Source: Dethiobacter alkaliphilus AHT 1 (GTDB lineage Bacteria; Bacillota; Dethiobacteria; Dethiobacterales; Dethiobacteraceae). From it: a stretch of 64,000 bases of DNA. The notes beneath the pieces were generated by a model. It made no database searches. It saw only the letters and a list, made by a program, of their open reading frames with translations, and had not been told where the DNA came from. This document shows, piece after piece, positions 50,743 through 53,832 of this stretch (position 1 is the stretch's first letter; each line of letters begins with the position of its first letter). A program made the position numbers and the translations under genes. The stretch lies in assembly GCF_000174415.1 (NCBI RefSeq), contig NZ_ACJM01000009.1:62001-126000 (forward strand), in the 5' to 3' direction.

Positions 50743-51651
50743 ATGGAGAAAAAGATATCACGCTTAACCGCAGATGTAAGCTTATTAATGGTTTCCTGCA
50801 TCTGGGGCCTGACATTTGTATCGCTGAAAAATGCCTTGACTGAAATAATGCCGTTTTCTTTTAATTTTTACCGTTTTAGCATTGCCGCCCTGTTAATGCT
50901 GGTATTGGCTCCCCGCTGCATCGCCGCCATTAAAAAGGAAACTGTTTTTGCCGGACTGCTACTGGGATTTTTTTTGTTTGGAGGCCATTCCCTGCAAACC
51001 ATGGGGCTGCTTTACACCACTGTGGCCAATGCCGGTTTTCTAACCGGCCTGGTGGTAGTATTTGTTCCCTTGATATTGGCGGTACTGATCAGAAAATCAC
51101 CGCCTGTAAATGCCTGGGCCGGCGCTCTTTTTGCTTTTGCCGGTGTGGCAGTGCTGTCATTGGGCGCCAGTGTCCGCTTAAACATAGGTGATATACTGGT
51201 AATATTGTGTGCTGTATGTTTTGCTCTCCAGCTAATCTATGTGGGGCGCTACTGCCACCAACACAATATTTTGCAACTGGTATTCGTGCAGATAGTTACA
51301 GTAGCTGTTTTGAGCTTCCCACCGGCCATATTAGCCGAGCCTTTTATTTTGCCGCAAGGGTTTAGTGCAAATATCTGGTTGGCGCTCTTTGTTACCGCAG
51401 TGCTGGCCACCACCCTGGCCTTCTTTGTGCAGGCCACCATGCAAAAATATACCGAATCTACCCATGCGGCCATTGTCCTCTCAGCAGAACCTGTTTTTGC
51501 CGCTTTGTTTGCCGCCCTTTTACTGGGCGAGATTCTCGGAGGGAGGGTGTTGTTAGGCGGCAGCCTGGTGCTGGCAGGAATGCTGCTGGCCGAAATTCGT
51601 GTATTCTCTTGGCCTCGTTCGCAAAAACTATTTGCGAAACGAGGTGAATAG
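50743..51651 (+). CDS. DMT superfamily (EamA) transporter
   Basis: The 302-aa protein has about ten membrane helices in two EamA repeats; the first has GLTFVSLKNAL near the start, the second SAEPVFAALFAALLLGE near 260-276, the usual EamA repeat end. The substrate is unknown. GGAGG precedes ATG 50743. One base separates its stop from the fixC start codon, and the fixC ribosome site lies in its last codons, so it is likely part of the fixCX operon. Confidence 0.88.
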   Translation: MEKKISRLTADVSLLMVSCIWGLTFVSLKNALTEIMPFSFNFYRFSIAALLMLVLAPRCIAAIKKETVFAGLLLGFFLFGGHSLQTMGLLYTTVANAGFLTGLVVVFVPLILAVLIRKSPPVNAWAGALFAFAGVAVLSLGASVRLNIGDILVILCAVCFALQLIYVGRYCHQHNILQLVFVQIVTVAVLSFPPAILAEPFILPQGFSANIWLALFVTAVLATTLAFFVQATMQKYTESTHAAIVLSAEPVFAALFAALLLGEILGGRVLLGGSLVLAGMLLAEIRVFSWPRSQKLFAKRGE

Positions 51652-51652
51652 T

Positions 51653-52957
51653 TTGGCAAGTTTCGATGCAATTGTTGTGGGCGCCGGTCCAGCCGGCAGT
51701 TCTGCAGCACTACATATGGCCCAAAACGGAATGCGGGTGGCACTCCTGGAGCGGGGCGATTCCCCGGGAAATAAAAACATGTTTGGAGGGGCTATTTATA
51801 CCGAGCCGATGATGGAGATAGTCCCCGATTTTCTGCAGGAAGCACCGCTTGAGCGTAATGTAACCAGAGATTCTCTCTGGTTTCTGGATAATGATTCAGC
51901 CGTGGAGGTGGGTTTTACCGGCCTGCGCTTTGGCAAACCGCCGTACAACAAAATCACCGTACTTCGCCCGCGGTTTGACCGCTGGCTGGCAGACAAGGCT
52001 GTCCAGGCCGGTGCCACACTGCAGACAAAAGCTGTGGTGCGCGACCTGTTATATGAGAAAAGAACTCTGGGGCGCGGCCGTGTTAAGGGTGTCATCCTGG
52101 ATGACGGCAGTGCGGCCGAGGCGGATTTGGTTATCCTGGCCGAAGGCGTGGTGGCTTCCATCACCAAAAAGGCCGGTTTGGTTAAGCCAACCCCTGCTAA
52201 TCTGCTCAGCCTGTGGATCCGGGAAGTGATTTCCCTGCCCAAAGAAAAAATCGAAGACCGTTTTTTACTGGAAAAAAATGAGGGAGCAGTTCTGGCCATG
52301 ATCGGCTACCCCACAACCCAGGCCATCGGCCTGGCAGGGATTTTCACCAACCGGGATTCCATCTCCCTTACTCTGGGGATGTCCATAGATAAGATTGCCA
52401 GAAACCGTGTTGCCATTCCGGAGCTTTTGACCCGACTAAAAGAACATCCTTATGTCCGCCGCCTGATTGCCGGCGGAAAAAGCGAAGCTTACGCGGCCCA
52501 CATGATACCCCACGGCGGCAAAGCTGCTCAGCCCAAATTTTATGATGACGGCCTGATGGTGGCTGGAGATGCGGCCATTATGGTCAGCGGGCGCCGCGGC
52601 AGCGACCTGGCCATGCTTTCCGGCAAGGCTGCAGCGGAAACCGCTGTTCACGCCCGCGCCAAACAGGATTTTTCCGCCGACATACTTAAAGGTTACAAAC
52701 GAAGGCTCAACCACACCTTTTTTATGAAAAATATCCAGCAAGCCAAGGATACGGTTAAGTACTATGATAATCACAGTGATGCCGACTATCTCTTAAACAC
52801 TGCGGTAAATGAACTGGCTTATGAATTTTTCCGTGCCGGAATGGTCACAGATAAAGAGAAAGTTCAACGCATGGCCCGCCTGGTTTTGGACAAACAGGCG
52901 CCGGCCAAAACTGTTTATGATTTGTTTATCGGTTTGCAAAACTGGGGGGTGTTATAA
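51653..52957 (+). CDS. fixC: FixC-type electron-transfer flavoprotein:quinone oxidoreductase
   Basis: The 434-aa flavoprotein begins with the FAD-binding DAIVVGAGPAGSSAALH, has GLMVAGDAA near residue 302 for the second FAD contact, and matches FixC, the flavin part of ETF:quinone oxidoreductase. It would pass electrons from an electron-transferring flavoprotein to menaquinone or another acceptor, working with FixX. TTG 51653 is chosen for GAGGTG 6 nt upstream; a longer open frame starts inside the transporter gene. fixA and fixB are not in the neighbourhood. Confidence 0.9.
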   Translation: MASFDAIVVGAGPAGSSAALHMAQNGMRVALLERGDSPGNKNMFGGAIYTEPMMEIVPDFLQEAPLERNVTRDSLWFLDNDSAVEVGFTGLRFGKPPYNKITVLRPRFDRWLADKAVQAGATLQTKAVVRDLLYEKRTLGRGRVKGVILDDGSAAEADLVILAEGVVASITKKAGLVKPTPANLLSLWIREVISLPKEKIEDRFLLEKNEGAVLAMIGYPTTQAIGLAGIFTNRDSISLTLGMSIDKIARNRVAIPELLTRLKEHPYVRRLIAGGKSEAYAAHMIPHGGKAAQPKFYDDGLMVAGDAAIMVSGRRGSDLAMLSGKAAAETAVHARAKQDFSADILKGYKRRLNHTFFMKNIQQAKDTVKYYDNHSDADYLLNTAVNELAYEFFRAGMVTDKEKVQRMARLVLDKQAPAKTVYDLFIGLQNWGVL

Positions 52958-53229
52958 TGAGCGGAGAAGAATATCTTCCCCTGGTTAAAATCACACCGGA
53001 TGAAAAAAGCCATATTACGTTAAAAGATGCCAAACACTGTAAAACATGCCGGCTCCGTGCCTGTCTTTATGTCTGCCCGTCTGCTGTTTTTTTCTGGGAT
53101 GAATTGGAGGAAAAACTGGACATTTTCTGGCGCCGCTGTGTTGAGTGTGCGGCATGCGAACCGGCTTGTCCTCAAAACATCGAATATGAAAATCCCCGCG
53201 GCGGTTATGGAGTATCATACCACCTGTAG
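52957..53229 (+). CDS. fixX: FixX-type ferredoxin-like protein
   Basis: The 90-aa protein has HCKTCRLRACLYVCP and CVECAACEPACP, which give cysteine sets for one or two Fe-S clusters as in FixX. Its start overlaps the fixC stop by one base, so the pair is translationally coupled. It is the electron partner of FixC. Confidence 0.93.
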   Translation: MSGEEYLPLVKITPDEKSHITLKDAKHCKTCRLRACLYVCPSAVFFWDELEEKLDIFWRRCVECAACEPACPQNIEYENPRGGYGVSYHL

Positions 53230-53244
53230 AGAAAGGAGAGCGTT

Positions 53245-53832
53245 ATGAGTATCTTAAGTCAGTTAGACACCCCTGTTTTCAAAGCAGAGGGAATACCCAA
53301 AATTGATCCGCAGACCTTTCGCCTTAAAGTATGGGGCCTGATGGAGGGGGAGCGGGACTTTTCTCTGCCGGATTTAAAACAGATGCCCTTCACCCGTCTT
53401 GATGCCCGCCTTACTTCCGTTAGCGGTTGGTCTGTGAGGGCAAAATGGGACGGTGTGCTGTGGCAGGATTTTGTTAAAAATATTAACCTGATGCCCCAGG
53501 CAAAGTATGTCACCTTCACCAGCGTGGGGGGCTACGATACCGGAATTCCCCTGCATGAACTAAACGAGCGGGTAATGCTGGTCTGGGCCGTGGACGGAGA
53601 GCCGCTGGAAAGACAGTACGGCGGGCCGCTGCGCTTACTGGTACCCCATCTATGGGGCTATAAATCCTGCAAATGGCTAAATGATATCGAGTTTCACCAG
53701 GAGGAAAGGGGTGGCTTCTGGGAAGACCGGGGCTACACCCGCTCCGGCATCATTGAACCCGGCATGACACTGGATATCAACACCCGCACCGAACGCCCCA
53801 TTAAAGGAGGCGGGGAGGTTACTGAGTTCTAA
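53245..53832 (+). CDS. Sulfite-oxidase-fold molybdopterin-binding protein (YedY/MsrP-like), Mo-ligand Cys replaced
   Basis: The 195-aa protein has the oxidoreductase molybdopterin-binding fold: FRLKVWGLME, then LTSVSGWSVRAKWDGVLW, GYDTGIPL, YGGPLRLLVPHLWGYKSCKW and a family-type end. In enzymes of this fold a Cys before V-x-G-W coordinates molybdenum; here that place is Ser 58 (TSVSGWS). There is no signal peptide or Tat motif, so it is cytoplasmic. It follows fixX by 15 nt. Whether it is an active oxidoreductase, a Ser-ligated variant or only a cofactor-binding protein is open. Confidence 0.82.
   Translation: MSILSQLDTPVFKAEGIPKIDPQTFRLKVWGLMEGERDFSLPDLKQMPFTRLDARLTSVSGWSVRAKWDGVLWQDFVKNINLMPQAKYVTFTSVGGYDTGIPLHELNERVMLVWAVDGEPLERQYGGPLRLLVPHLWGYKSCKWLNDIEFHQEERGGFWEDRGYTRSGIIEPGMTLDINTRTERPIKGGGEVTEF

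Follow-up and report, generated by a model that had tools for sequence, protein, structure and literature searches.

The stretch of DNA analysed here, from the soda-lake bacterium Dethiobacter alkaliphilus AHT 1 (64,000 nucleotides, hereafter the window) belongs to a genome of 3,112,004 bases in 34 contigs, and carries a tight run of four plus-strand genes for an EamA transporter, FixC, FixX, and a PF00174 protein. The gene for the EamA/DMT-family transporter (50743..51651; PF00892, E=4.8e-36) is followed by fixC/etfC (51653..52957), which matches 7KOE_C and encodes the FAD-dependent quinone-reducing subunit of an EtfABCX-type complex. fixC starts with TTG one base past the transporter stop, and its own stop is overlapped (TAATG) by fixX/etfX (52957..53229), encoding a ferredoxin-like subunit with two [4Fe-4S] motifs (7KOE_D, Fer4_ETF_QO, Fer4_7). 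After 15 bases comes the gene for a 195-aa protein of the sulfite-oxidase (SUOX) fold (53245..53832; PF00174, E=1.4e-35, 122.8 bits), here called the Mo-fold gene, which in the window is probably co-transcribed with fixX. All four genes lie where an earlier, sequence-only reading of this DNA had placed them, including the one-base spacing between the transporter gene and fixC (51651 versus 51653).

FixC and FixX are of a known kind. The best PDB match of FixC, the only FixC in the genome, is 7KOE_C, the FixC of T. maritima (E=1.9e-79), and that of FixX is 7KOE_D (E=3.6e-13). The sequence-only reading described the pair as lacking FixAB. No such genes lie beside the locus, but a search of the genome for etfAB found a single pair on another contig (C6; fixCX is on C9), so the pair is not without candidate partners. 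The EtfA of this pair has an N-terminal ferredoxin domain, is closest to CarE (6FAH, E=8.8e-143) and then to other bifurcating-type EtfA structures, and is related to 7KOE_B. Compared with T. maritima EtfABCX (7KOE), the subunits correspond (FixC to chain C, FixX to chain D, EtfA to chain B), whereas the four genes do not form one operon, EtfAB being encoded on another contig with an EtfA that has a CarE-like N-terminal ferredoxin domain. T. maritima EtfABCX is a characterised NADH:ferredoxin/menaquinone bifurcating enzyme (PMC10734219). By analogy, fixC-fixX would provide EtfC and EtfX, the quinone-reducing arm of a bifurcating-type ETF, with EtfAB supplied in trans; of the electrons from NADH, some would go to ferredoxin and the others to menaquinone by way of the [4Fe-4S] clusters of EtfX and the FAD of EtfC. 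The sole EtfAB pair (L025:4807-14731 on C6) lies among multiheme cytochrome, NHL-repeat, and TPR-repeat genes, a placement hinting that the ETF may be connected with extracellular electron transfer. An analysis of D. alkaliphilus AHT1 notes electron transfer flavoproteins in a multiheme cytochrome cluster (PMC10376724), which is probably the same cluster.

The distribution of these genes in relatives separates fixCX from the Mo-fold gene. Among 20 genomes of the same family, intact FixC was found in five, all with a strong EtfAB pair; strong EtfAB-type matches also occur in two more, G076 and G086, which have FixC remnants, and the other 13 have neither FixC nor that EtfAB type, the EtfAB pairs of relatives being counts of domain hits. 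Intact FixC tracks this EtfAB type (p=0.0014) and shows no association with the Mo-fold gene (p=0.60), values that are indicative only because the 20 genomes are related. Four genomes (G077, G078, G079, and G089) have both fixC and fixX but no orthologue of the Mo-fold gene; in G089, fixCX directly adjoins the same NUDIX gene as in the window, and in G078 it lies upstream of a cimA-like gene, again as in the window. Conversely, intact fixCX is missing from four of the five genomes that have the Mo-fold gene. In G086, fixCX is a pseudogene (L027:7753-8404) with two frameshifts and a deletion that fuses fixC to the final 18 codons of fixX; the adjacent Mo-fold gene is intact. In G076, what is left of fixC between the transporter gene and an intact Mo-fold gene is a vestige of 21 residues (E=0.04), at the expected place. 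The Ser-type gene has other neighbours in G025 and G252, and no neighbour is conserved across all five genomes. In G076, too, an EamA/DMT gene (57% orthologue, L028) precedes the Mo-fold gene; the loci in G086 (L027) and G089 (L078) have none. These comparisons show that fixCX and the Mo-fold gene are independent of each other, and fixCX appears to be an ordinary electron-transfer pair unrelated to the Mo-fold gene beside it, although the 15-base spacing in the window makes a lineage-specific link possible. Downstream of the Ser-type gene in G076 (L028:8456-9907) and G086 (L027:2525-3976), and not in the window, lies a gene for an HpaB_N-family protein (4-hydroxybutyryl-CoA dehydratase-like).

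Molybdoenzymes of the sulfite-oxidase family are defined by a Cys-Mo bond. The 195-aa protein has the PF00174 domain and fold of this family and lacks the conserved Mo-ligating Cys. Residue 58 is Ser, as the sequence-only reading had claimed, in LTSVSGWS (codon TCC, 53416..53418, plus strand). In alignments it occupies the position of Cys102 (mature numbering) in E. coli MsrP/YedY and of the Cys in 33 Cys-type homologue rows. We collected homologues of the protein and found orthologues at 73-77% identity in G076, G086, and G025, and at 57-59% identity in G252, which belongs to another class. All five members, from two classes, contain TSVSG[WF]SVRA. Column 58 of the alignment is thus Ser in 5/5 clade members, and Cys in E. 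coli MsrP and in 33/33 other homologue rows (of which two are from the same locus and two are identical), as well as in two further members from a viral contig and a Sinorhizobium plasmid. In a tree, the five Ser-type proteins form one branch with 100/100 support and lie apart from another clade, that of the Cys-less PF00174 proteins found in related bacteria. Across the five orthologues Ser is encoded by TCC or TCG, so that the third base has changed and the residue has been kept. The protein has a mean column identity of 84% across four genera, and the gene has pN/pS values of 0.23-0.39 in pairs with saturated synonymous sites and dN/dS values of 0.05-0.29 in the remaining pairs, ratios by which it is judged to be under purifying selection. 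Because Ser is conserved, is encoded by both TCC and TCG, and lies in a gene under such selection, a private mutation of D. alkaliphilus is excluded and simple decay is unlikely. The Ser-type member of the fold is real, and its clade is a small and unusual one among bacteria. No further member was found among seven genomes of the class of G252, only G252 matched at Ser-clade scores in a second phylum draw of 397 that largely overlapped the first draw, and a scan of genome contigs recovered the three known relatives only. The assemblies of G086, G076, G025, and probably also G252 are drafts or metagenome-derived, and in G025 the gene is split over two contigs. A non-exhaustive literature search found no description of this clade or of a Ser-ligated SUOX protein.

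The remainder of the predicted active site is partly kept and partly remodelled. Trp62 (Phe in G252), Gly70, Arg130, Lys140, Ser141, Lys143, Trp144, and the GFWExRGY stretch are kept in the Ser clade, and R130, K140, S141, and K143 are invariant across the mixed Ser/Cys alignment. These four residues lie in the retained pterin-side motif PLRLLVPHLWGYKSCKWL (53626..53679, plus strand), in which Arg130 and KSxKW presumably contact the pterin phosphate. Compared with Cys-type members, C58S is accompanied by D55R, H57T, H92T (Tyr in G252), and H125Y. A clade-specific Cys142 (53668-53670), in KSCKW, is invariant in the Ser clade (window, L026, L027, L028, and L070), the site being Ala, Val, or Ile in Cys-type members. 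Cys142 may be a compensating residue. By eye, the N-terminus MSILSQLDTPVFKAEG shows no hydrophobic segment or N-terminal signal, and the protein is predicted to be cytosolic.

An AlphaFold model of the 195-aa protein reached a pLDDT of 69 and a pTM of 0.71; the pLDDT was 45 with four close orthologues as input and 69 with one more distant Cys-type row. The model is of low confidence precisely at residues 57-62 and 136-142, the loops of Ser58 and Cys142, and therefore no site geometry is claimed. Its matches run from sulfite dehydrogenases (E=1.9e-09) and MsrP/YedY to chicken sulfite oxidase, including C185S, and then to PruR. Among the closest known proteins are the cytosolic "sulfite oxidase-like oxidoreductases" (PF00174; for example in Sinorhizobium and Bacillota), which are also of about 200 aa and share PLR...KSxKW and GFWExxGY at no more than 38% identity; these have D-x-H-C-V-T-G/R-W with the Mo-ligating Cys, where the window clade reads R-L-T-S-V-S-G-W. 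E. coli MsrP shares the SUOX fold and the aligned pterin-side motif, but it is exported, retains Cys102, and is paired with MsrQ, whereas the window protein has Ser58, and no MsrQ is encoded next to it. PruR shares the SUOX fold without a Mo-ligating Cys, binds pterins, and acts in signalling (PMC13259868). Unlike the window protein, PruR is a secreted protein with Trp in this position, is partnered by DcpA/DTB, and belongs to a more distant sequence group; in the window protein the site is Ser, no secretion signal was seen by eye, and no adjacent DcpA/DTB regulator was found among the neighbours of the Ser-type gene in the five genomes.

The reading that we favour, with a probability of about 0.7, is that the locus holds two separable units, a split EtfAB/EtfCX and a new Ser-type subfamily of the SUOX fold that likely binds a pterin or Moco without a Cys-Mo bond. 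The sequence-only reading had instead joined FixCX and the Mo-fold protein in one dedicated redox module. The operon-like spacing in the window and the same-order remnants in G086 are consistent with such a module, yet it is largely refuted by the decay of fixCX beside a retained Mo-fold gene in G086 and G076. With EtfAB encoded elsewhere in the genome, intact fixCX in only one of the five Ser-type genomes, and four FixC genomes that have no Ser-type protein, the expected conservation of the linkage was not borne out, and we regard a dedicated module as very improbable. Still harder to credit is that the Ser-type protein is a functionless, decaying relic of a molybdoenzyme; this would account for the loss of the catalytic ligand, but not for the conservation across four genera, the low nonsynonymous/synonymous ratios, or a Ser that persists through third-position changes.

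What the Ser-type protein does is a more even question, and its role may also be another than the two considered next. It is conceivable, though at less than even odds, that it resembles PruR in binding reduced pterin or molybdopterin for signalling or storage without catalysis. PruR sets the precedent of a Cys-less, pterin-binding protein with a solved SUOX-type fold, and the model aligns with PruR structures at TM 0.63-0.76 by target length, but sequence similarity to PruR is marginal (E=0.045), and the secretion, the Trp, and the DcpA/DTB regulators of PruR are missing. Only tentatively do we entertain an active oxidoreductase in which Ser58 ligates Mo (or Mo is trioxo) with shifted redox chemistry, that is, a natural Ser-type enzyme of the sulfite-oxidase family. 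The retained pterin-side residues and a sequence nearer to catalytic members (E=1.4e-16) than to PruR, as is the model, argue for it, and structures of the C185S chicken enzyme exist (3HBG and 3HBP). However, D55R, H57T, H92T, and H125Y changed together with the Cys, and no redox partner gene is conserved. Moco genes, whose presence had been suggested as a check, give a divided answer: the window genome, G076, and G086 all have MoaC and MoeA, so Moco is probably available in D. alkaliphilus, but MoeA was not found in G252 (assembly 89% complete) or G025 (66% complete), both of which have the Ser-type gene. A Ser-coordinated or thiolate-free Mo enzyme with a remodelled active site in which Cys142 possibly takes part seems to us unlikely.

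Within the favoured reading of two separable units, the 195-aa protein most likely would hold a pyranopterin or other pterin via Arg130 and KSxKW, without a Cys-Mo bond. We think that a role in binding or regulation, or else slow oxygen-atom chemistry on a thiolate-free Mo, is likelier than classical sulfite-oxidase catalysis. The subfamily is new, whereas the fold and Cys-less pterin-binding members such as PruR were already known. If it were a Ser-type Mo enzyme, the family-defining Cys would not be obligatory for catalysis. Keeping the pterin-side motif, the Ser clade is a natural counterpart of laboratory C-to-S mutants, and would either allow the purpose of the Cys-Mo bond to be tested or bring to light a new pterin-binding protein of the cytosol. 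Of less importance is the fixCX part, which shows that EtfCX can be encoded apart from EtfAB.

Two further observations concern other PF00174 proteins. The Cys-less PF00174 proteins of Dethiobacteria relatives (L010-L019) form a clade of their own, several with lipoprotein-like N-termini, and PF00174 matches a Cys-less lipoprotein outside the approximate N-terminus of the query; these are possible PruR-like pterin binders in Bacillota. On a viral contig (L121:3-1413), the ORF of a large serine recombinase directly adjoins the 3' portion of a Cys-type sulfite-oxidase-like gene, an arrangement that suggests a provirus integration site within that gene.
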